This document shows positions 10,177 through 63,162 of a DNA stretch of 64,000 nt, piece after piece. Origin of the DNA: Argyresthia goedartella (taxonomy: Eukaryota > Arthropoda > Insecta > Lepidoptera > Argyresthiidae); contig OX463829.1 of NCBI GenBank assembly GCA_949825045.1, forward strand, positions 19,810,715-19,874,714. Direction: 5' to 3'. Every line of letters begins with the position of its first letter. The stretch's first letter is position 1. Below the pieces are notes generated by a model. It searched no databases. It was not told where the DNA came from and worked only from the letters and a program-made list of their open reading frames with translations. The translations under genes and the position numbers were made by a program.

Positions 10177-12105
10177 GTGCGATGTAGAGATATCTTATAT
10201 GACCTTTATGAACAAAAAACCTATAACTTTGATCGAAAATTTCATGACTACGTTAAAAAATATTCCAAAACTTTCAAGTTGGTTTGTAGAACTGCAAAAA
10301 CTTTACACATTAATAGAAAAATTCAAAATTCAAATAATAGAATGAAAACTGTTTGGCAAATAATAAACCGCGAAACTGGCAAAGTTATACCAAGGGACAA
10401 TGATTTCTGCCTAAAGATAGGTGATGATGTTGTTAAATCCAGCGCTGATGTTGCTCGAGCTTTTGAAACATTCTTCACCAATGTACCCTTACTCACAACA
10501 GACCGTCTAAATTCATCTCCATATGAAGCAGAGACTTTATTAAAAAATAACACTAGCGCCAGTAATGTATATTTAAAATTTCATCATGTATATCCCCAGG
10601 ACATTGTCAAAACGTTTAAATTACTTAACTTAAAAAATACGGAAGACCTGTGGGGTATATCAATCAGAGTCATTGGTTCAGTAATTCTAGTTATAGCCCC
10701 ACACTTAGCTTATATATTCAATAAATGTGTTGACGATGGGGCTTTCCCAGACCTCATAAAACACAGTAAACTGATACCTCTGTTCAAGTCGGGAGATAAG
10801 GGTGATCCTTCAAATTTCAGACCAATATCTGTTCTTCCAACACTAAGTAAAATATTTGAAAAGATTATACTCAATCAAATGCTCTCACACTTCAACCGTA
10901 CAAAACAACTCCACGCCAAACAATACGGTTTCACTAGGGGTAAATCGACTACGGATGCAGGTATTACCCTTATCTCTCATATTTATTCTGCATGGGAGGC
11001 CGCACAGGACGCTATCGGAGTTTGTTGCGACCTGTCGAAGGCGTTTGATTGTGTTGATCATAATACGCTATTAATTAAATTAAATCATTACGGAGTTAGA
11101 AATAAAGCGTTGGATCTACTAAGATCACACCTAAGCAATAGAATTCAAAAGGCAGAAGTTAACGGCGTAAAATCTGATGGATCGGGTGTTAAAATGGGCG
11201 TTCCACAAGGTTCCATATTGGGCCCTTTCTTATTCCTGGTATATATTAATGATCTGCCTTTCATGGTGGAGAAATTAACTGAAATAGTGTTGTTTGCTGA
11301 TGATACTTCACTGGTCTTCAAAATTGAAAGACAAAAAGGAGAATTTGATGATGTTAATGGTGTATTGTCTTTAACCTTGAATTGGTTCACAGTTAATAAT
11401 TTAAACGCTGGTAAAACCAAGTGTATCAAATTCTCACTTCCAAATGTCAGGCAAGTTGAGACCAGTTTAGTGTTAGACAACAGCACGTTAGCAAAGTTTC
11501 TTGGAATATCCATTGATAGCAAATTGCAGTGGGGACCCCACATAGATAAATTGGCTGGTAAATTAAGTTCTGTGGCTTACGCTGTTAGGAACATCAGACA
11601 AAGCACGGATGTGGCTACATCTAGGCTAGTATATTTTAGTTACTTTCATAGTGTGATGTCCTATGGTATCTTGTTGTGGGGGAAAGCAGCGGATATTCAA
11701 ACTATTTTTATTTTACAGAAAAGAGCTATTCGAGCAATTTATAATTTAAAACGAACAGACTCCTTAAGAGAGCTTTTTAAAGAAATTGACATACTAACAG
11801 TAGCTAGTCAATTTATTTTCGAAAATATAATGTATGTACGCAAGAACCTTACAACATTTTCCAAACTTAGCGATAGCTGTAATGTTAACCTAAGAAATAA
11901 TCACAGAGTATGTGCGCCCCGTTTTAGACTCGCGAAGGTTAGCAATTCTTTTAAGGGTCAGTGCATTCTCTACTACAATAAGATACCTCTGGAGATTTTG
12001 AAATTGCCATTTGAGCAATTTAAAAAGCATGTTAAAGCGACTTTGTCGAAAAAGGGATATTACAATGTTCAAGATTACTTAAATGACAGGACTGTATGGG
12101 GTTAA
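10177..12105 (+). CDS. Reverse transcriptase of LINE copy A (uninterrupted, truncated start)
   Basis: About 642 codons open without interruption; the frame has no genuine start because the 5' part (endonuclease) is missing. From about residue 200 the polymerase motifs follow in order: FRPISVLP (~210), CDLSKAFDCVDH (~285, motif A), GVPQGSILGP (~342, motif B), FADDTSL (~372, catalytic motif C). The C-terminal region ends in DRTVWG, identical to copy B. Relative to B it lacks two codons in a NNLLLNAGK stretch. All visible catalytic residues are kept, so the copy is young, but without an endonuclease or promoter it is unlikely to move by itself. Confidence 0.85.
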   Translation: MRCRDILYDLYEQKTYNFDRKFHDYVKKYSKTFKLVCRTAKTLHINRKIQNSNNRMKTVWQIINRETGKVIPRDNDFCLKIGDDVVKSSADVARAFETFFTNVPLLTTDRLNSSPYEAETLLKNNTSASNVYLKFHHVYPQDIVKTFKLLNLKNTEDLWGISIRVIGSVILVIAPHLAYIFNKCVDDGAFPDLIKHSKLIPLFKSGDKGDPSNFRPISVLPTLSKIFEKIILNQMLSHFNRTKQLHAKQYGFTRGKSTTDAGITLISHIYSAWEAAQDAIGVCCDLSKAFDCVDHNTLLIKLNHYGVRNKALDLLRSHLSNRIQKAEVNGVKSDGSGVKMGVPQGSILGPFLFLVYINDLPFMVEKLTEIVLFADDTSLVFKIERQKGEFDDVNGVLSLTLNWFTVNNLNAGKTKCIKFSLPNVRQVETSLVLDNSTLAKFLGISIDSKLQWGPHIDKLAGKLSSVAYAVRNIRQSTDVATSRLVYFSYFHSVMSYGILLWGKAADIQTIFILQKRAIRAIYNLKRTDSLRELFKEIDILTVASQFIFENIMYVRKNLTTFSKLSDSCNVNLRNNHRVCAPRFRLAKVSNSFKGQCILYYNKIPLEILKLPFEQFKKHVKATLSKKGYYNVQDYLNDRTVWG

Positions 12106-12165
12106 TCTGGCTCAACACAGACCTTGCTGTTAATAGGTTTGTAATTATTTATTCCTGCTAATTGG
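10184..12165 (+). mobile_element. Jockey/CR1-group LINE, copy A (5' truncated, RT intact)
   Basis: Matches copy B (14200-16200) almost base for base from TATCTTATATGACC onward. It lacks the endonuclease region and also the last ~230 bases of the 3'UTR and tail present in copy B: similarity stops after TTTATTCCTGCT at about 12165, where LTR-leader sequence begins. Either a deletion joined it to the LTR element or it was cut by a later rearrangement. Confidence 0.85.
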
Positions 12166-13369: not shown

Positions 13370-14870
13370 TTCAGACACCGATGTTATCTGTATTACAGAA
13401 CACTGGTTAAAGGAAAATATGATGTCTTTTAACATAAATAATTACAAAATTGTCAGTTGTTACAATAGAAAGACTGCTGATAGAGGTGGTTCTTTAATCT
13501 TAGTAAAAAATAATATTAAGGTGAAACAACGGAAAGATATTCTTGCACTTACTGTAGAAAGACAAATAGAGGTATCCTGTGTTGAGTTGGATAGCCATAT
13601 TATTATTTGTGTCTACAGACCTCCGAGAGATGAAAACGGCCATGGCAATTTTGAAATGTTCGAGAAAATTATGGAGGATGCCCTCATTAAACTTTGTAAT
13701 AGCAGAAAAAAGTTAATTATTTGTGGCGATTTTAATGTAGATTTGCTTGTAGATACAACATTGAAACAACGATTAATAACTCTGTTCAAATCATTTAATT
13801 TATGTCATATATTTCTAGAGCCAACTAGAATTACACTTACCAGCCAAACTTACTTAGATAACGTTTTTTGTTACTGTGCATTCACATGTAAAAATGTAAT
13901 TAACTGCTTACCCTCAGATCACAGTGGTCAACCAGTTTCATTCCCAATTGCCAGTAAAAATAGGACTGATCCATCATTTTATAGGCCTATTACATCCCAT
14001 AGACTAGAGACGTATATGAAAAAGTTAGATATAAATTTGCCAGTACCGGATTTTGATGAACAGAACCCAAACAAAATCTACTCAGACTTCTTCAACATTA
14101 TTCAGACAGAATTCAATAAAGTTTTTAAATTAAAGAAAGTCAGTGACTACAACGGTAAATCTAAATTTAATGACTGGGCAACATTTGGAATTCGTAAAAG
14201 TAGAGTTATCTTATATGACCTTTATGAACAAAAAACCTATAACTTTGATCGAAAATTTCATGACTATGTTAAAAAATATTCCAAAACTTTCAAGTTGGTT
14301 TGTAGAACTGCAAAAACTTTACACATTAATAGAAAAATTCAAAATTCAAATAATAGAATGAAAACAGTTTGGCAAATAATAAACCGCGAAACTGGCAAAG
14401 TTATACCAAGGGACAATGATTTCTGCCTAAAGATAGGTGATGATGTTGTTAAATCCAGCGCTGATGTTGCTCGAGCTTTTGAAACATTCTTCACCAATGT
14501 ACCCTTACTCACTACAGACCGTCTAAATTCATCTCCATATGAAGCAGAGACTTTATTAAAAAATAACACTCGGGTCACTAATGTATATTTAAAATTTCAT
14601 CATGTATATCCCCAGGACATTGTCAAAACGTTTAAATTACTTAACTTAAAAAATACGGAAGACCTGTGGGGTATATCAGTCAAAGTCATTGGATCAGTAA
14701 TTCTAGTTATAGCCCCACACTTAGCTTATATATTCAATAAATGTGTTGACGATAGGGCTTTCCCAGTCCTCATGAAACACAGTAAACTGATACTTTTGTT
14801 CAAGTCGGGAGATAAGGGTGATCCTTCAAATTTCAGACCAATATCTGTTCTTCCATATTTTATTACTTAG
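13370..14870 (+). pseudogene. Endonuclease and N-terminal RT half of LINE copy B
   Basis: Open frame from at least 13345 (DSDTDVICITEHWLKEN) through 14870. Endonuclease motifs are visible: VYRPPRD near 13618, ICGDFNVDLL near 13718 and LPSDHSGQPV near 13909, corresponding to the GDFN and SDH active-site boxes of exonuclease-endonuclease-phosphatase folds. It then enters the RT N-terminal region and stops just after FRPISVLP, where a short templated insertion (14855-14876) breaks the frame. The first EN motif (near the true start) is missing through 5' truncation. Confidence 0.8.
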
Positions 14871-14891
14871 TGTTGGCACTAAGTAAAATAT
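14855..14891. repeat. Inverted duplication that breaks LINE copy B
   Basis: Arm ATATTTTATTACTTAGTG (14855-14872), loop TTGG, arm CACTAAGTAAAATAT (14877-14891); apart from a 3-base insertion the arms are exact complements. Copy A has only the second arm here. The first arm thus looks copied from the second in reverse, a replication template switch. Confidence 0.8.
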
Positions 14892-16147
14892 TTGAAAAGA
14901 TTATACTCAATCAAATGCTCTCACACTTCAACCGTATAAAACAACTCCACGCCAAACAATACGGTTTCACTAGGGGTAAATCGACTACGGATGCAGGTAT
15001 TACCCTTATATCTCATATTTATTCTGCATGGGAGGCCGCACAGGATGCTATCGGAGTTTTTTGCGACCTGTCGAAGGCGTTTGATTGTGTTGATCATAAT
15101 ACGCTATTAATTAAATTAAACCATTATGGAGTTAGAAATAAAGCGTTGGATCTACTAAGATCATACCTAAGCAATAGAATTCAAAAGGCAGAAGTTAACG
15201 GCGTAAAATCTGATGGATCGGGTGTTAAAATTGGCGTTCCACAAGGTTCCATATTAGGCCCTTTCTTATTCCTGGTATATATTAATGATCTGCCTTCCAT
15301 GGTGGAGAAATTAACTGACATAGTGTTGTTTGCTGATGATACTTCAATGGTCTTCAAAATTGAAAGACAAAAAGGAGATTTTGATGATGTTAATGGTGTG
15401 TTGTCTTTAACCTTGAATTGGTTCACAGTTAATAATTTATTGTTAAACGCTGGTAAAACCAAGTGTATCAAATTCTCACTTCCAAATGTCAGGCAAGTTG
15501 AGACCAGTTTAGTGTTAGACAACAGCACGTTAGCAATGTTTCTTGGAATATCCATTGATAGCAAATTGCAGTGGGGACCCCACATAGATAAATTGGCTGG
15601 TAAATTAAGTTCTGTGGCTTACGCTGTTAGGAACATCAGACAAAGCACGGATGTGGCTACATCTAGGCTAGTATATTTTAGTTACTTTCATAGTGTGATG
15701 TCCTATGGTATCTTGTTGTGGGGGAAAGCAGCGGATATTCAAACTATTTTTATTTTACAGAAAAGAGCTATTCGAGCAATTTATAATTTAAAACGAACAG
15801 ACTCCTTAAGAGAGCTTTTTAAAGAAATTGACATACTAACAGTAGCTAGTCAATTTATTTTCGAAAATATAATGTATGTACGCAAGAACCTTACAACATT
15901 TTCCAAACTTAGCGATAGCTGTAATGTTAACCTAAGAAATAATCACAGACTATGTGCGCCCCGTTTTAGACTCGCGAAGGTTAGCAATTCTTTTAAGGGT
16001 CAGTGCATTCTCTACTACAATAAGATACCTCTGGAGATTTTGAAATTGCCATTTGAGCAATTTAAAAAGCATGTTAAAGCGACTTTGTCGAAAAAGGGAT
16101 ATTACAATGTTCAAGATTACTTAAATGACAGGACTGTATGGGGTTAA
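14870..16147 (+). pseudogene. Catalytic RT half of LINE copy B
   Basis: Continues the interrupted protein for about 425 codons with LSKIFEKIILNQMLSHF at the start, CDLSKAFDCVDH near 15062, GVPQGSILGP near 15235 and FADDTSM near 15329, ending in NDRTVWG as in copy A. It carries no further stop. The copy was therefore intact until one insertion, consistent with a recent arrival. Confidence 0.8.
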
Positions 16148-16551
16148 TCTGGCTCAACACAGACCTTGCTGTTAATAGGTTTGTAATTATTTATTCCTGC
16201 TTATTAATCATAACAATTAAATTTTTCATATTTGTATTAGTTAAGAGCACAACCTATTTTTAAAAGAGATCTAAAAATCAATCTGTGGGAGTTTCTACGC
16301 CCTTCTTCTCCCACAGTGGTCCAATGTAGAGAAGAGGCAAAAAATGACGTTTGCTAAGTATATGTAAATATCTACAGTAATAAAGTACTTTGACTATTGA
16401 CTATTCTATAATAAAATGTAAGGAAACGTGTTTCCGAGAGGACGCACTGGCCTCGAACTAAAGGACTGCCCGTGTTTCCAAAAAGAAACACGCGGCCTCA
16501 AAAGGTGATACTTCCTGTTTCCTAAAGGATTCCTGGCGCTCAACGTGTTAA

Positions 16552-23330: not shown

Positions 23331-24539
23331 CAAACTGACAGGCGCGAAAACGGACCTACAGCCTACAGCGGAAGTGACGTAATAATTGATGTCAGTAAGG
23401 GACAGAGCTATGCGACAATCTCCTCCTTTTTTCGCAAAGAAAAGGAAATTGAGACAGATGCACCCTTCGATTTATAAACAAGTGCCGTTTAACGTCAGTT
23501 ATTATTTTATTTGATTTAGCAGTATATTTTGATAAAAATCACTGCTAAATCAAATAAAAACGTGCAAAAGAGGAGCATTTTATGTTTTTAGGTCTCAAAA
23601 TATTCCTTAATCTGATAAAATCCAACCGAAGCTTCTCTGTTACGACAACATGCTCTTATAACACGTAATCGGTGTCAGATGGTAAGAAAAAGTTATGTGT
23701 GCTACATTTTCACTTAACAAATAAAGACAAATAAATCACGTTCTGTCGAATGGGCAAAGCGTAACCTTCACAGCTGCGGCGATGGGCCTGCCCCCTGTCA
23801 CGCATAATAGGGTATTGAATAACTAGCTAAGCGTGGGCACAATTGGTATCTGCCACCCCGTATGGGAATAGGCGTAACGCTATGTTTGCATATGTGTGTG
23901 TGTATGTGGTGGCCACTCAGGTAACGTGAGACATTGAGCTTCAAAGGCCACGTTTTCAGGCACCTTTTTAGGCACCCATGCAATTGGGTAGAAGATAACT
24001 TCTTCCTCTTCTCTTAAGTAACTTGTATGTCCCCACCGAGGGGCAAATGCCTAATTGACTGTTAAAATCAAATATCCCAAGCATTAGATTAATTCTTTTT
24101 TGCTGCAGCCGGCATGCTATTTCCTTCTCGAACCCAAGGAATCTAGTCAGCTCTATTAGTTAGTAAGTATGTTGTACTCCTACGGCTTAAATAAGTAGTT
24201 ACCAAAGGAAACTCTATCATTTCCTCCACGCCAGGCACGCGGAAGGTACGGTCAACTATAACATACTACTACCATCGTGGTCATTATGACGTACGAAATA
24301 AGAATGCTTCAAAAGGTCTACCTTGACCAATAGTACTGAATGAATGTGAAGATTGCCAAGCGTTCCGTTCGGGTAATGCATTTCCGTCTTAGCCATAAAG
24401 TAACGCAACTTGGCTCGACTGCAATGTTTTTATACGACTATCTATTACCTACTCTGTTTCTTGACACCTGTTCACCTAGCCATCCCCGAACAGTGTTGCT
24501 ATCTTACAGAATAGACAGTGCAAAAGAGTAGATCTATGA
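23331..24539 (+). repeat. 1,209-bp direct tandem duplication, unit 1
   Basis: Identical to 24540-25748 except for the single difference I noticed (A at 24343, C at 25552). It contains a copy of dispersed repeat C (23770-23885) and a perfect hairpin (23505-23523 with 23541-23559). There is no gene in it; short frames of about 60 codons are copied with it. Confidence 0.95.
23505..23559. repeat. Perfect 19-bp hairpin, repeated in both tandem units
   Basis: TTTTATTTGATTTAGCAGT (23505-23523) and its exact complement (23541-23559), 17-base loop. Its twin is at 24714-24768. Confidence 0.85.
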
Positions 24540-25748
24540 CAAACTGACAGGCGCGAAAACGGACCTACAGCCTACAGCGGAAGTGACGTAATAATTGATG
24601 TCAGTAAGGGACAGAGCTATGCGACAATCTCCTCCTTTTTTCGCAAAGAAAAGGAAATTGAGACAGATGCACCCTTCGATTTATAAACAAGTGCCGTTTA
24701 ACGTCAGTTATTATTTTATTTGATTTAGCAGTATATTTTGATAAAAATCACTGCTAAATCAAATAAAAACGTGCAAAAGAGGAGCATTTTATGTTTTTAG
24801 GTCTCAAAATATTCCTTAATCTGATAAAATCCAACCGAAGCTTCTCTGTTACGACAACATGCTCTTATAACACGTAATCGGTGTCAGATGGTAAGAAAAA
24901 GTTATGTGTGCTACATTTTCACTTAACAAATAAAGACAAATAAATCACGTTCTGTCGAATGGGCAAAGCGTAACCTTCACAGCTGCGGCGATGGGCCTGC
25001 CCCCTGTCACGCATAATAGGGTATTGAATAACTAGCTAAGCGTGGGCACAATTGGTATCTGCCACCCCGTATGGGAATAGGCGTAACGCTATGTTTGCAT
25101 ATGTGTGTGTGTATGTGGTGGCCACTCAGGTAACGTGAGACATTGAGCTTCAAAGGCCACGTTTTCAGGCACCTTTTTAGGCACCCATGCAATTGGGTAG
25201 AAGATAACTTCTTCCTCTTCTCTTAAGTAACTTGTATGTCCCCACCGAGGGGCAAATGCCTAATTGACTGTTAAAATCAAATATCCCAAGCATTAGATTA
25301 ATTCTTTTTTGCTGCAGCCGGCATGCTATTTCCTTCTCGAACCCAAGGAATCTAGTCAGCTCTATTAGTTAGTAAGTATGTTGTACTCCTACGGCTTAAA
25401 TAAGTAGTTACCAAAGGAAACTCTATCATTTCCTCCACGCCAGGCACGCGGAAGGTACGGTCAACTATAACATACTACTACCATCGTGGTCATTATGACG
25501 TACGAAATAAGAATGCTTCAAAAGGTCTACCTTGACCAATAGTACTGAATGCATGTGAAGATTGCCAAGCGTTCCGTTCGGGTAATGCATTTCCGTCTTA
25601 GCCATAAAGTAACGCAACTTGGCTCGACTGCAATGTTTTTATACGACTATCTATTACCTACTCTGTTTCTTGACACCTGTTCACCTAGCCATCCCCGAAC
25701 AGTGTTGCTATCTTACAGAATAGACAGTGCAAAAGAGTAGATCTATGA
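24540..25748 (+). repeat. 1,209-bp direct tandem duplication, unit 2
   Basis: Second unit, beginning CAAACTGACAGGCGCGAAAA exactly where the first ends (GTAGATCTATGAC). Near-identity means either a very recent duplication or an assembly artefact in which two haplotypes were laid end to end. Confidence 0.95.
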
Positions 25749-26039
25749 CCAAGCTGAACTCACGACAAAGTAAGATCCTGAACCTCACATTATTCGATCC
25801 AACAGCAATAGGAACATATTTGCGCTTCAGTTATGTTGTAAATGCAAAACACAGAATGGAATACCGACACGGCTTTCCTGCTCGATATGGCGATACCGGC
25901 AAAAACAATATTCAGTCTCATTCGTGCACACATGTAATTTAGCATATGCGATGAAAATAAAAGCTGTTAAGCATCGCATTTGAGTTGCAGAAACATAAAT
26001 ATTGGCTTTTTTTATAGTTAGTATCTGTGAGTCGTCTCC
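25749..26039. other. No gene seen
   Basis: Unremarkable sequence between the tandem duplication and a SINE copy. Confidence 0.3.
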
Positions 26040-28481: not shown

Positions 28482-28724
28482 AATGGGGTATGGGGTTAAT
28501 CTAGCTCAAAACAGTCCTTGATGTTAATAATTTTGTAATTATGTATTCCTGCTTATTAATTATAGTAATTAATATTGTAATATTTGTATTACTTAAGCAC
28601 AAGCAATTTTTAAAAGAGATTTTAAAATCAATCTGTGGGAGTTTTTACACCCTTCTTCTCCCACAATGGTCCAATGTAGAGAAGCGGCAAAAAATTACGT
28701 TTGCTAATTATATGTAAATATCTA
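28482..28724 (+). repeat. Orphan 3' end of LINE family A/B/C
   Basis: From TATGGGGTTAATCTAGCTCA to ATATGTAAATATCTA this matches the last codons (VWG stop) and 3'UTR of copy B (16135-16375). The insertion is severely 5' truncated and the TTTGAC tail is lost. Confidence 0.8.
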
Positions 28725-33565: not shown

Positions 33566-33741
33566 GGTAAAGACCTCTGTGGCGTCGCGGTCCGAGACTT
33601 TGCCTCCCAAGCGCAAGGTCCTGGGTTCGAATCCCAGCTGGGGATGACGAAAATAAAATATACAATAGTCTTCTAGTGTGGGCCAGAAGCAATGTATTTG
33701 CCTGTTTATAACTGTTTGTGTTTGAATCTTTGCTGTGCAAT
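33566..33741 (+). mobile_element. SINE-like family A, plus copy
   Basis: A box TGGCGTCGCGG (33580-33590), B box GGTTCGAATCCC (33623-33634), CAGCTGGGG, and the 3' end TCTAGTGTGGGCCAGAAGCA. The standard body between them is shortened. It abuts LINE copy C directly. Confidence 0.7.
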
Positions 33742-36012
33742 TATTTCTGCCTAAAGATAAAGTGATGATGTTGTTAAATCCAACCATTCTTCACCAATGT
33801 ACCCTTATTCACGACAGGGCATCAACTAAATTCATCACCATATCAAGCAGAGACTTTGTTAAAAAACAACACTAGCGTCAGATGTATATTTAAAATTTAA
33901 TCATGTGTATCCCCAGGACATTCTCAATATGTTTAGATTACTTTACTTAAAAAATACCGAAGTCCTGTGGTGTACATCAGTCAAAGTCATTTGTTCAGTA
34001 ATTCTAGTTATAGCCCTACACTAAGCTTATATATTCAATAAATGTGTTGGCGATGGAGCTTGCTCAAACCTCATGAAACACAGCAAACTGATACCTCTGT
34101 TCAAGTCGGGAGACAAGGGTGATCCTTCAAATTTCAGACCAATATCTGTTCTTCCAGCACTAAGTAAAATATTTGAAAAGATTATACTCGATCAAGCTCT
34201 CACACTTCAGCGTACAAAACAATTCCACGCCAAACAATACGGTATCACTAGGGGTAAATCGACTACGGGTGCAAATATTACCCTTATATCTTATATTTAT
34301 TCTGCATGGAAGGCCGCAAAGGTTGCTATTGGAGTTCGAAGGCATTTTGATTGCGTTGATGATACGCTACTAATGAAATTTAAACTAGTAAGATCATACT
34401 TAAGCAATAGAATTCAAAAAGCACAAGTCAACGGGTTTAATGTGATGGATCGGGTGTAAAAATTGGCCTTCCACAATGTTCCATATTAGGCCCTTACTTA
34501 TTCCTGGTTTATATTAAAGATTTAACTTTCATGGTGGAGAAATTGACTGACATAGTGTTGTTTGCTGATGATACTTCACTGGTCTTCAAAATTAAAAGAC
34601 AAAAAGAAGATTTTGATGATGTTATTAGTGTATTGTCTTTTACCTTGAATTGGTTCACAGTTAATAATTTATTGTTAAGTAAGTTGAGTTTAAGTATATC
34701 AAATTCTCACTTCCTAATGTCAGGCAAGATGAGACCAGTTTAGTGTTAGACAGCAACACGTTATAACTAGTCAATGATGCGAGGTTTCTTTAAATAACCA
34801 TTGATAGCTAATTGCAGTGGGGACCCCACATAGATATATTAGCTGGTAATTTAAGTTCTGCGGCTTACGCTGTTAGGAACATTATACAATACACGGATGT
34901 GGCTTCACCTAGGCTAGTATATTTTAGATAATTTCATAGTCATCATCATCATGTCTTTTGAACTCGTCAGTAAAGCATTCTCGATAGGAACTTGTATCTG
35001 TATAGGCTGGACATGTAGTTTATAGAATTCTGCCTTGCCGCAACACAGTTTCTACTAGCGCGGAGGGTAGCGGACTATATTCTGCTGGTTCTATTACCTT
35101 TGTAAAGTACACACCATTTTTATGGGATATCCACAATATCACATTGTTTACTTAGTTTATAGTTCTAAACATAACTTTAGGTATGTGGTATGGTTAATAA
35201 TATAGCTATGAATTACTATAAAGTTAAATATATTAGTACCAATTTGTAAGTACCTACTTTGTAACCAGCATCTTCCACGATCTCTTAATAAACATTTCAT
35301 TTCATTTCATTTCATTTCATTTCATTTTGGTATCTTGTTGTGGTGGAAAGCAGCGGATATTCAAACAATTTTTATTTTACAGAAAAGAGCTACGCCAGCA
35401 AGTTATAATTTAAAACGAACAGACTTCTTAAGAGAGCTTTTTAAAGAAATTGACATGCTAACTGTAGCTAGTCAATTTATTTTCGAAAATATAATGTATG
35501 TAAGAACCTTACAACATTTTCCAAACTTAGCGATAGCTGTAATGTTAACCTAAGAAATAATCACAGACTAGTTGCGCCCCGGTTTAGACTCGTGAAGGTT
35601 AGCAATTATTTCAAGGGTCAGTGCATTCTCTATAACAATAAGATACTTCTGGCGATTTTGAAATTGCCATTTGAGCAATTTAAAAAGCAAGTTAAAGCGA
35701 CTTTGTCGAAAAAGGGATATTACAATGTTCAAGATTACCTAAATGACGGTACTGTATGGGGTTAATCTAGCTCAACACAGACCTTGCTGTTATATTGTAA
35801 TTATTTATTCCTGCTTATTAATCATAATAATAAAAAAAAACATATTTGTAATAGTTAAGCACAACCTATTTTTAAAAGAGATCTAAAAATCAATCTGTGG
35901 GAGTTTCTATGCCCTTCTTCTCCCACAGTGGTCCAATGTAGAGAAGAGGCAAAAATTACGTTTGCTAAGTATATGTAAATATCTACAGTAATAAAGTACT
36001 TTGACTTTGACT
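33742..36012 (+). pseudogene. LINE copy C (heavily decayed relative of copies A and B)
   Basis: Starts at TTATTTCTGCCTAAAGATA (copy A position about 10403) and runs to the 3' tail CTTTGACTTTGACTTTATC at 36012. Many deletions and frameshifts; recognisable pieces are FRPISVLPALSKIFEKIILD (34135), LTDIVLFADDTSLVFKIKRQ (34543) and LKRTDFLRELFKEIDMLTVA (35410). The middle is interrupted by another LINE's tail (34940-35330). It is clearly older than copies A and B, showing that the family has been active over a long period. Confidence 0.85.
34940..35330 (+). mobile_element. Nested LINE 3' end with ATTTC tail
   Basis: Insertion between the homologues of copy B's TTTCATAG (15690) and GGTATCTTGTTG (15708). 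It ends in AATAAACATTTCATTTC and about six ATTTC units (35297-35327). A second tail of the same type lies at 49560-49707. No coding part is retained. Confidence 0.7.
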
Positions 36013-36014
36013 TT

Positions 36015-60292: not shown

Positions 60293-60589
60293 TTTTTTGT
60301 TCCCATATAACCTTACCTAACCTAACCAAATAAAAAAATAGTTTTAAGTACCTACCTGAATTACTACCTGTGTCCCGTAAATAATGGATATCCTCGGAGC
60401 TATTGATTTAAACAAATTTCACCATGAAACTGATTTGATCAGAGCAACTTTATTATTGATATCTCCATTATGGGCTGGGCGGTCAGGAAAAAAAAATGCT
60501 CTGATCCAATCGGGATCATAGCAAAAGTTGTTCAGAATGATAAGGTAAATCCCAGATAGGATATTGAGGCTATATTATTGATATTGTAA
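60293..60589. other. No gene seen
   Basis: Contains TAACCTTACCTAACCTAACC (60308). Probably the distal upstream region of the dehydrogenase exon. Confidence 0.3.
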
Positions 60590-60757
60590 TAATTGTATTG
60601 GTTAATCAGAACAATTTTTTAAATAATATTCAATGCCAATCTATGGGAATTTCTTTGCTCTTCTTCTCCTACAGTGGTCCAATGTAGAGAGGAGTCAAAA
60701 AGACGTTTGCTAAGTATATGTAAATATCTACAGTAACAAAAAATTTTAAGTTTGAGT
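60590..60757 (+). repeat. 3' end of LINE family A/B/C upstream of the dehydrogenase gene
   Basis: GGTTAATCAGAACAATTTTT, CTTCTTCTCCTACAGTGGTC, CAATGTAGAGAGGAGTCAAA and GTATATGTAAATATCTACAG match copy B's 3'UTR with moderate divergence. It ends about 50 bases before the exon's acceptor, so it lies in an upstream intron or UTR. Confidence 0.75.
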
Positions 60758-60813
60758 TTGTAGGTGACGATGCACCGCCATTACAACAGCCAACCTCTTT
60801 GCCGCAGGAGTAA

Positions 60814-60825: not shown

Positions 60826-60996
60826 ATGGAGCCGCTAACGTGGCTGTCCCTGGGGCTGCAGCTCGCGGCGCTCTGCTCGATCGTGGGCGCGCTGTTGCTG
60901 TACCTGCTGCGCAAGGTGCGCGTGGCTGAGGTGCGCCCGCTCGAGTCCGCCAAGACTGTGCTCGTGACCAGCGTCGACACTGCGCTGGGCTTGCAG
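60826..60996 (+). CDS. Short-chain dehydrogenase/reductase, first coding exon
   Basis: 57 codons from ATG 60826 to CAG, followed by donor GTGACT. A plausible acceptor (CTCTTTGCCGCAG, ending 60807) lies just upstream, so an untranslated exon probably precedes. Residues 6-28 (WLSLGLQLAALCSIVGALLL...) form a hydrophobic membrane anchor followed by basic RKVR. Residues 43-57 (KTVLVTSVDTALGLQ) align with the first beta strand and glycine loop of classical SDRs such as the retinol dehydrogenase / 17-beta-HSD2 / BDH1 branch, where the loop is usually TGCDSGFG; here two of three glycines are replaced (Ser49, Ala53). The substrate cannot be deduced. Relatives in this branch include the ecdysteroid-pathway protein Shroud, but I have no sequence basis to call it that. 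The GC-rich codons contrast with the flanks. The 3' part of this exon is repeated in the following intron. Confidence 0.8.
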
Positions 60997-62040
60997 GTGA
61001 CTCTATACTAGCAGACTATACTATAGCAAGCTTCTTAAAGCATACAGTAACTTCTCCGCTCGGGTTAGTTGGGTTATAGGCAGGTGCTTCGTAGAGTAAG
61101 CGTCGTAATTAAAACAGCTATGGAGTCCGCCAAGACTGTGCTCGTGACCAGCGTCGACACTGCGCTGGGCTTGCAGGTGACTCTATACTAGCAGACTATA
61201 CTACAGCAAGCTTCTTAAAGCATACAGTAACTTCTCCGCTCGGGTTAGTTGGGTTATAGGCAGGTGCTTCGTAGAGTAACCATCGTAATTAAAACAGCTA
61301 TGGAGTCCGCCAAGACTGTGCTCGTGACCAGCGTCGACACTGCGCTGGGCTTGCAGGTGACTCTATACTAGCAGACTATACTACAGCAAGCTTCTTAAAG
61401 CATACAGTAACTTCTCCGCTCGGGTTAGTTGGGTTATAGGCAGGTGCTTCGTAGAGTAACCATCGTAATTAAAACAGCTATGGAGTCCGCCAAGACTGTG
61501 CTCGTGACCAGCGTCGACACTGCGCTGGGCTTGCAGGTGACTCTATACTAGCAGACTATACTACAGCAAGCTTCTTAAAGCATACAGTAACTTCTCCGCT
61601 CGGGTTAGTTGGGTTATAGGCAGGTGCTTCGTAGAGTAAGCGTCGTAATTAAAACAGCTATGGAGTCCGCCAAGACTGTGCTCGTGACCAGCGTCGACAC
61701 TGCGCTGGGCTTGCAGGTGACTCTATACTAGCAGACTATACTATAGCACGCTTCTTAAAGCATACAGTAACTTCTCCGCTCGGGTTAGTTGGGTTATAGG
61801 CAGGTGCTTCGTAGAGTAAGCGTCGTAATTAAAACAGCTATGGAGTCCGCCAAGACTGTGCTCGTGACCAGCGTCGACACTGCGCTGGGCTTGCAGGTGA
61901 CTCTATACTAGCAGGCTATACTATAGCACACTTCTTAAAGCATAAAGTTCTCTCTAAAGTTCTGGAAACTTCTCCGCTCGAGTTACTTGGGTTATAAGCA
62001 GGTGCTTCGTAGAGTAAGCATCGTAATTAAAACAGCTATG
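60943..62040 (+). repeat. 180-bp tandem array made from exon 1 and its donor
   Basis: Unit starts at GAGTCCGCCAAGACTGTGCT: 60943 (the real exon), 61123, 61303, 61483, 61663 and 61843 (last unit ~198 bp with an insertion). Units are nearly identical; single-base variants include AAGCGTCG/AACCATCG and GCAAGCTT/GCACGCTT. Each intronic unit has an ATG in frame (61120, 61300, 61480, 61660, 61840) preceded by AATTAAAACAGCT, then 57 coding-like bases ending TTGCAG|GTGACT with the donor retained. Degenerate units continue to 62392. Confidence 0.95.
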
Positions 62041-62392
62041 GAGTCCGCTTTGACTGTGCTCGGACAACTCGCTGAGCTTGCTGGTAAGTCCATAGACTGT
62101 ATTCGTGACCATTGTAGACACCGCGCTGGGCATGCAGGTGAGACCATAGAGTGCTCATGCATAACTAGTGTGAACGGCCACGAATACAGCCTATGATCTC
62201 ACCTGCAAGACCAGCGACCCCGCTGGTCTTGCAGGTGAGATCATAGGCTGTATTCGTGACTAGTGTGGCATGACTAGTGTGGACACCCCGCTGGTCTTGC
62301 AGGTGAGATCATAGGCTGTATTCGTGACTAGTGTGGCATGACTAGTGTGGACACTGCGCTGGGCTTGCAGGAGACTATAGTCTAAATAAACC
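62041..62392 (+). repeat. Rearranged, degenerate end of the exon-1 array
   Basis: Repeated pieces of GACACYSCGCTGGKCTTGCAG followed by GTGAGATCATAGGCTGTATT occur here with a ~66-bp sub-period (62218 and 62284), plus TAGTGTGGCATGACTAGTGT. Donor-like CAGGTGAGA sequences recur. One unit is inverted, forming the palindrome at 62179-62258. The last unit reads TTGCAGGAGACT, with the GT donor lost. Confidence 0.85.
62179..62258. repeat. Perfect 38-bp inverted repeat in intron 1
   Basis: Arm 62179-62216 (beginning CACGAATACAGCCTATGATC) and its exact complement 62221-62258, with loop ACCC. The arms are copies of the exon-end/donor sequence in opposite orientations. Confidence 0.95.
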
Positions 62393-62397
62393 TAGCA

Positions 62398-62455
62398 TCA
62401 CGCCTTTTTGCTCACGGCGCGCCCAGAGGCCAGGGCGTGGCAGAGGCACAGTTGA
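62398..62455 (-). repeat. Repeat C-like scrap
   Basis: CATCACGCCTTTTTGCTCAC and AGGGCGTGGCAGAGGCACAG resemble the right end of repeat C on the minus strand. Short and diverged. Confidence 0.35.
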
Positions 62456-62675
62456 CACTAACTATTACCCCGAGAGAAGTGATAGTTTGCAATTTTACTT
62501 GCTAAGTTAGGTGCGATAAAAAGATGCGTATTGTCACCGAAAGGCCTAGCCCTACTTGAGAAAAAGTCATCAAATTGCGAGTCCAATCACGAAAATTACA
62601 CTCTACCTATATATACTTGGATAGGTCTATCCAACAATAGTGCGCTTCAGTATGGTACAAAAAAGTTACTAAAAT

Positions 62676-62850
62676 TTGGCCGATTTTACCAACGATCCCT
62701 ATCTTTTAGGGGACACTTTATTTATTTCAGGGGCCACCGAACGGTTGTTTCGATTTGCCCTAAGTGTAAGGGTCATCTAGGCCCCGAAACATTCGCTAGA
62801 CAGCTAAGAAAAATAGTTAAGTGTTCCTTAACTGTTGGTGAAATCGGCCG
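62676..62850. mobile_element. MITE-like element in intron 1
   Basis: GGCCGATTTTACCAAC (62678-62693) and GTTGGTGAAATCGGCC (62834-62849) are inverted copies with one mismatch. GGGGACACTT...AAGTGTTCC sequences lie inside. A 111-codon frame spans it by chance. Confidence 0.5.
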
Positions 62851-62933
62851 ACACGTGAATATTTAAAACCACAATTCGTTCACATCCTGTCGAGAACTTG
62901 CAATAACCAGTCTATTCTACCTACCTCCCCCAG

Positions 62934-63162
62934 ATCGCTACATATCTCAGCTCGCGCGGCTGGCGCGTCCTGGCGGGCTGCCGGCCGGGCGGGCTCGGCG
63001 CTCGGCTCGCTTCGTCCTGGCTGGCGGCGCACTCGGGCGGAGGGGCGGGGGCGGAGGCGGTGGTGCCGCGGCTAGCCACGCTGGAGCTCGACGTCGCGAG
63101 AGAGGATCTGCTGGAGGAAGCTGCGAGGGCGACCGCGCAGCACCTGCCCGCTGGGGAGCATG
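62934..63162 (+). CDS. Short-chain dehydrogenase/reductase, second coding exon
   Basis: After acceptor CTACCTCCCCCAG (62933), 229 bases stay in frame with exon 1 (phase 0) and end with phase 1 before donor GTGGGT (63163). Translation begins IATYLSSRGWRVLAGCRPGG and later reads VVPRLATLELDVAREDLLEE, the SDR pattern of helix A, second beta strand with an Arg that could bind NADP phosphate, and the LDV adenine-ring Asp loop. The exon is about 75 % GC, with Ala/Gly/Arg-rich codons, sharply unlike the AT-rich surroundings. The NAG and YxxxK catalytic motifs must lie in downstream exons. An antisense proline/serine-rich frame here is only the GC shadow. Confidence 0.8.

Follow-up and report, generated by a model that had tools for sequence, protein, structure and literature searches.

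Near the end of the 64,000-nucleotide stretch of Argyresthia goedartella DNA analysed here (the window), the last coding bases of the first exon of an SDR-like gene, together with their splice donor, have been copied over and over into the intron that follows. We think it probable that this array is a boundary minisatellite at the exon-1 5' splice site, duplicated repeatedly and spliced out from the first donor, with nine decoy donors carried along inside the intron. It has the look of a commonplace repeat expansion, still young, at the edge of an exon, and not of a row of working alternative first exons; nothing found so far makes it a new system of gene regulation. An older episode would have brought copies of the exon end into intron 1 at a spacing of 54-68 bp, which have since decayed and become partly inverted; a younger episode would have expanded or homogenised a 180-bp set by unequal exchange, conversion or replication slippage. 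Splicing most likely runs from 60996 to 62934, so that the whole array would be removed with intron 1, and the array would reduce splicing accuracy modestly at most, since what its copies add are decoys whose scores match or exceed that of the true donor.

The host gene and its relatives

The host gene is intact: a six-exon model on GT/AG sites runs without an early stop and aligns to the relative P0001. Its downstream exons were placed by tblastn with three relatives in 40 kb of sequence downstream and joined by whichever set of GT/AG sites gave the best alignment to P0001. Positions beyond the window keep its numbering, and a slash marks a splice junction throughout.

60826-60996, forward strand: coding part of exon 1, from the ATG at 60826 to the coding end at 60996, 57 codons (N-terminal anchor and start of the SDR-like domain); donor CAG/GTGACT
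62934-63162, forward strand: exon 2; acceptor CCTACCTCCCCCAG/ATC, the best-scoring of the gene's five
65442-65515, 69677-69776, 71542-71773 and from 77482, forward strand: downstream exons, from tblastn and alignment

Intron 1 is 1,937 nt long (60997-62933), and a run of 60 N lies inside intron 2 (64106-64165). The predicted exons 1 and 2 are confirmed by alignment with 27 of 37 relatives, and the string GLQIATYL spans their join in 26 of the 27 aligned, P0037 reading GLQVALRL. These relatives come from a protein search in which 7,995 candidates were scored and at least 37 passed at E <= 0.001. An organism is named for 30 of the 37 listed and seven are without a name; 29 of the named ones are butterflies or moths, and the weakest is a stick insect. 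The SDR-like protein is conserved across the named lepidopteran relatives.

The earlier note had called the product a dehydrogenase and the copied codons a Rossmann start, and both labels prove weak. SDR signatures are YxxxK and TGxxxGxG. Here the glycine motif reads TSVDTALG, with Ser at its second position in 27 of 28 rows and Cys in one. In the catalytic columns, located via the stick-insect row of the alignment, the aligned relatives have no Tyr in the 27 rows with a letter at the Tyr position, and no Lys in the 26 rows with a letter at the Lys position, where all have Arg. With TSxxxALG where TGxxxGxG is expected, the protein may be a non-catalytic member or pseudo-enzyme. Against Pfam adh_short, P0001 scores 23.9 bits, just below the cut-off of 26.6, and P0004 28.2, just above it; the two-exon fragment returned no Pfam family, and in the PDB DHRS9 is the sole sequence at E <= 0.001 (E = 0.00082), with no single stretch passing.

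The N-terminal anchor region is found in 36 of the 37 listed relatives (41 to 53 residues ahead of the motif). The sole one without it, P0036, begins MLPDKAKTVLVTS..., near the residue where products of the array would start; its source is a contig of 1,875 bases, and it may be 5'-incomplete.

The window, part of a 30.9-Mb contig, also carries LINE-type retrotransposon copies with reverse-transcriptase-like frames, named from their translations, at 10184-12163, 14200-16205 and 33738-36012, the first two of them 97% identical. A fragment at 60577-60759, which ends about 70 bp ahead of the exon-1 ATG, is about 80-82% like 16228-16384, 28568-28724 and 35842-36014, near LINE ends. Searches of the window found no tRNAs, and no Rfam families at gathering score.

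Young and old copies of the exon end

Tandem Repeats Finder places the array at 60943-62062, with a period of 180, 6.1 copies and a score of 1952. Each unit joins the last 54 coding bases of exon 1 and their donor to 126 intronic bases. Behind the young units, on the same side, lie older copies in various states of decay.

60943-61122, forward strand: unit 1 (exon 1 end, donor, 126 intronic bases)
61123-61302, forward strand: unit 2, ATG 61120, donor after 61176; 3 differences from unit 1
61303-61482, forward strand: unit 3, ATG 61300, donor after 61356; identical to unit 2
61483-61662, forward strand: unit 4, ATG 61480, donor after 61536; 1 difference from unit 1
61663-61842, forward strand: unit 5, ATG 61660, donor after 61716; 1 difference from unit 1
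61843-62040, forward strand: unit 6, 198 bp, ATG 61840, donor after 61896; exonic 54 bp unchanged
62041-62095, forward strand: decayed partial copy, ATG 62038, donor CTG/GTAAGT after 62083
62096-62143, forward strand: old exon-end copy, donor CAG/GTGAGA after 62137; 37 of 46 probe matches over 62098-62143
62179-62216 and 62221-62258, unstranded: perfect 38-nt inverted pair of exon-end copies with a 4-nt spacer; contains donor 62234
62217-62371, forward strand: 68-bp tandem repeat of old exon-end copies, donors CAG/GTGAGA after 62234 and 62302

The repeat search and the comparison of units thus bear out the earlier claim of a tandem array of exon end and donor within the next intron. The proposed composition stands as to the 180 bp, the 54 coding bases and the donor, and needs correcting in its intronic part, which is 126 bp and not about 120. 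Likewise, the near-identity asserted for five further units holds for units 2-5 and fails for unit 6, whose intronic part differs from that of unit 5 by 7 substitutions and an 18-bp insertion. The five 180-bp units (60943-61842) are 98-100% identical, as recent expansion or homogenisation would have it: only 4 of 180 columns vary (82, 87, 158 and 160), none in the exonic 54, and the mean pairwise difference is 1.2%.

The six units comprise five distinct sequences, in the order A, B, B, C, D, E. One variant is common to units 2-4 and another to units 5-6, and unit 1 is a single difference away from unit 4 and from unit 5 but three away from the adjoining unit 2. Such a mosaic speaks more for exchange or conversion than for copies added one step at a time. 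Across all six units none of the 54 exonic columns varies, against 10 of the 126 intronic ones (Fisher p = 0.034; 0.32 without unit 6), a possible sign that the copied exon part is constrained, though one that exchange breakpoints would explain equally well. We count this invariance, along with the lack of an anchor in P0036, against the minisatellite reading; selection on the copied codons is not claimed, as p = 0.034 depends on counting unit 6. Counted in its favour is a second tandem duplication in the window, at 23331-25757 (about 1.2 kb, 99.75% identity), a head-to-tail arrangement that could be a recent tandem duplication or an assembly duplicate. A mobile element or genome-wide satellite was rejected, since searches of the 89-contig, 1.1-Gb assembly with the unit (at least six matches) and with 62041-62400 (at least two) matched the array locus only.

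The older copies are recognisable by their matches to the end of exon 1. The older exon-end copies stand at 62096-62137, 62271-62302 and 62339-62370, decayed copies extend to 62371, and the last old copy (to 62370) reads CAGGAGACT, with no GT at that point. In the partial copy at 62041-62095, 46 bases separate ATG from donor (counted by eye), out of frame with exon 2. Nine ungapped copies match a 46-base exon-end probe at 31 to 46 of 46 positions, and three decayed ones among the ungapped keep 37, 35 and 31; the best of 20 shuffles of the probe reached 27 of 46 on the forward strand of the window. Used as probes on the forward strand of 60001-77700, the ends of exons 2-5 gave best matches of 26, 23, 25 and 25 of 46, and so no copies, and five acceptor probes gave a best of 24. 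Because the decayed copies rise above the shuffled level and the other exon ends are uncopied, this sequence comparison shows two or more rounds of copying of the exon-1 end, differing in their spacing.

As RNA, the inverted pair (62179-62258) folds at -76.6 kcal/mol and the stretch 62060-62380 at -160.7 kcal/mol (z = -9.8), a strength that is expected given its inverted repeats. An intron antisense to the splice donor was considered and rejected: the inverted arm can pair with the exon-1 donor region at -33.5 kcal/mol, as against -76.6 and -78.0 with its neighbours. Nor do we claim the older copies as coding fossils. Ten of the 14 differences that separate three of them from the exon fall at codon position 3 (32-base stretch), but the copies share ancestry, and third positions make up only 4 of 8 distinct differing sites.

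Donor choice and the alternatives

Splice sites were scored with generic, rounded weights that are not fitted to Lepidoptera. On this scale the exon-1 donor scores 4.8, the top of the gene's five donors; its copies in the five young units score the same, and four older copies reach 6.7 to 6.9. Intron 1 has nine GT sites that equal or exceed the exon-1 donor, and every one of them belongs to a copy of the exon end: eight are ungapped or within the 68-bp repeat, and one (62083) is in the gapped partial copy. Of the 926 GTs in all five introns, 11 attain that score. When an exon-1 transcript is carried through any of the eight downstream donors tested, the predicted outcome is a truncated product of 61 residues ending QVTLY, which should favour splicing from the first donor. 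We regard the exon-end copies as credible decoy donors and as weakly credible acceptor-donor points.

If the gene is spliced as we infer, the array offers a natural test of donor choice: one and the same 5' splice site occurs six times at 180-nt intervals, preceded each time by an unchanged run of 54 bases and followed by 126 that are almost alike (unit 6 departs further), and only the first would give the full protein from an exon-1 transcript. The array also illustrates a route by which introns can grow, the duplication of an exon edge.

An unlikely alternative, and the strongest of those weighed, is that the array is transparent to splicing: its CAG/GT copies would act as acceptor and donor at once, and intron 1 would be removed partly in 180-nt steps, in the manner of recursive splicing. 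Since the donor GT directly follows an AG, a copy used first as acceptor and then as donor would contribute nothing to the mRNA. Units 1-6 all read TTGCAG/GTGACT at 180-nt spacing, and with a score of 2.1 the unit's AG ranks in the top 5.4% of 875 intronic AGs (copies included) and beats one of the five real acceptors (5.7, -0.4, 3.3, 4.5 and 2.9), its 9 pyrimidines of 16 falling inside their range of 7 to 13. The older copies at 62235 and 62303 do better still, scoring 4.5 each, in the top 1.1%, with donors that outscore the true donor. Against this, exon 2 has a true acceptor far better than the unit's AG (13 of 16 pyrimidines; a score of 5.7, as opposed to 2.1), the old copy at 62138 scores just 0.9, and the weights behind all these figures are generic and not fitted to Lepidoptera. 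Recursive sites in flies, moreover, are described from very long introns with segments nearly all above 1 kb (PMC6110457), as against 180 nt in the 1.9-kb intron here. Were splicing transparent after all, the array would be free to grow, because every full unit has CAG/GT and the mRNA can stay unchanged. The intron would gain whole 180-nt steps at little cost, each adding another acceptor-donor point. Splicing would now pass most often through the two older copies at 62235 and 62303, which outscore the young ones both as acceptors and as donors.

We give still less weight to an assembly artefact that inflated or collapsed the copy number. The identity of units 2 and 3 speaks for it, but assembly error is unlikely to explain everything, given five distinct sequences among six units; against it, too, are the decayed older copies adjoining on the same side and the restriction of matches to one locus in the 89-contig assembly (counts being lower bounds).

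Least probable of all, and in our judgement very improbable, is the reading put forward in the earlier note, by which transcription starts within the units and turns them into alternative first exons for anchor-less proteins beginning MESAKTVLVTS... The observation behind it is sound, as all five full intronic units (2-6) have an in-frame ATG and a donor compatible with exon 2. A junction ATG precedes each of them, as well as the partial copy, at the positions listed above; in units 2-6 the ATG and 18 codons join exon 2 (62934) in frame as MESAKTVLVTSVDTALGLQ/IATYL, and a unit ATG read without splicing gives 23 residues. In its context, GCTATGG, the ATG is flanked by a G at both -3 and +4, in line with the start-context rule, an uncontrolled scan of unit 2 turns up loose patterns resembling an initiator (YYANWYY, twice) and a downstream element (RGWYV, four times), and P0036, one relative in 37, begins near the same residue. 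Yet the anchor region is kept in the other 36, and the ATG recurs in every copy because it sits at the duplication junction and the unit was copied, which leaves the claim of alternative first exons unsupported. The partial copy at 62041 retains its ATG but loses the frame to its donor. TCAGT, TCAKTY and TATAWA are absent from unit 2 (the one unit scanned, a weak test), which is uninformative as the 626 bp upstream of exon 1 have neither TCAGT nor TCAKTY. Arrays of alternative first exons are of the UGT1A/protocadherin type; the present one is like them in the start codon and in-frame donor of units 2-6 and unlike them in that no diverse products would arise, the exonic parts being identical. 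Cassette or mutually exclusive exons were rejected: the AG before the ATG (AAAACAG/CTATGG) shifts the frame to a stop (unit 2 tested), and as an acceptor it scores -3.2 at 61118 and -2.0 at 61298, below all five real ones.

Relation to known boundary repeats

Read from its sequence, the array is an exon-intron boundary minisatellite of a known kind, in which the tandem unit holds exon end, donor and intron start. Titles and abstract openings from the literature on Lepidoptera and related terms made no similar insect case evident. The closest described case, going by the reports cited, is the 31-bp VNTR of human CBS, c.1444_1467+7(16_21), at exon 13/intron 13 (PMC2630376; PMC5188458). The notation covers the last 24 coding and 7 intronic bases, so on that reading a donor should follow with each copy, and the tandem copies there, as here, carry single-base differences. 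Copy number of the CBS VNTR varies, and more repeats have been reported together with lower enzyme activity (PMC2630376; PMC5188458). It differs in having a 31-bp unit in 16-21 copies at a later exon, whereas here the unit is 180 bp, in six copies, at the first coding exon and with ATGs at the junctions.

Boundary minisatellites are also described from human segmental duplications, where internal tandem repeats at exon-intron boundaries account for 27 intron modifications and can form novel introns in duplicated genes (PMC2812944). The likeness lies in the boundary repeats themselves; there they change splicing, and the reported units are of about 30 bp, four on average, identified by comparison of paralogs with RNA support (PMC2812944). 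The ratchet points of recursive splicing in flies, reported from very long introns and as more conserved than control AGGT motifs (PMC8605326; PMC6110457), juxtapose acceptor and donor around AG/GT, as the copies here may do. Those introns are long, whereas the copies here are identical, 180 nt apart and candidate sites only, and by the length criterion for recursive sites (segments mostly above 1 kb, PMC6110457) an intron of 1,937 nt with segments of 180 nt is too short. Finally, tandem duplication of an AGGT-containing segment is an established model of intron gain (the Rogers model; cases in PMC4974935), described for two fission yeast genes in which the intron spans tandem 24-bp units, four of them in one case and two in the other (PMC4974935). 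The two situations have in common tandem copies of a segment with AG/GT; but where that model makes a new intron within an exon, here an existing intron has been lengthened from its 5' edge.
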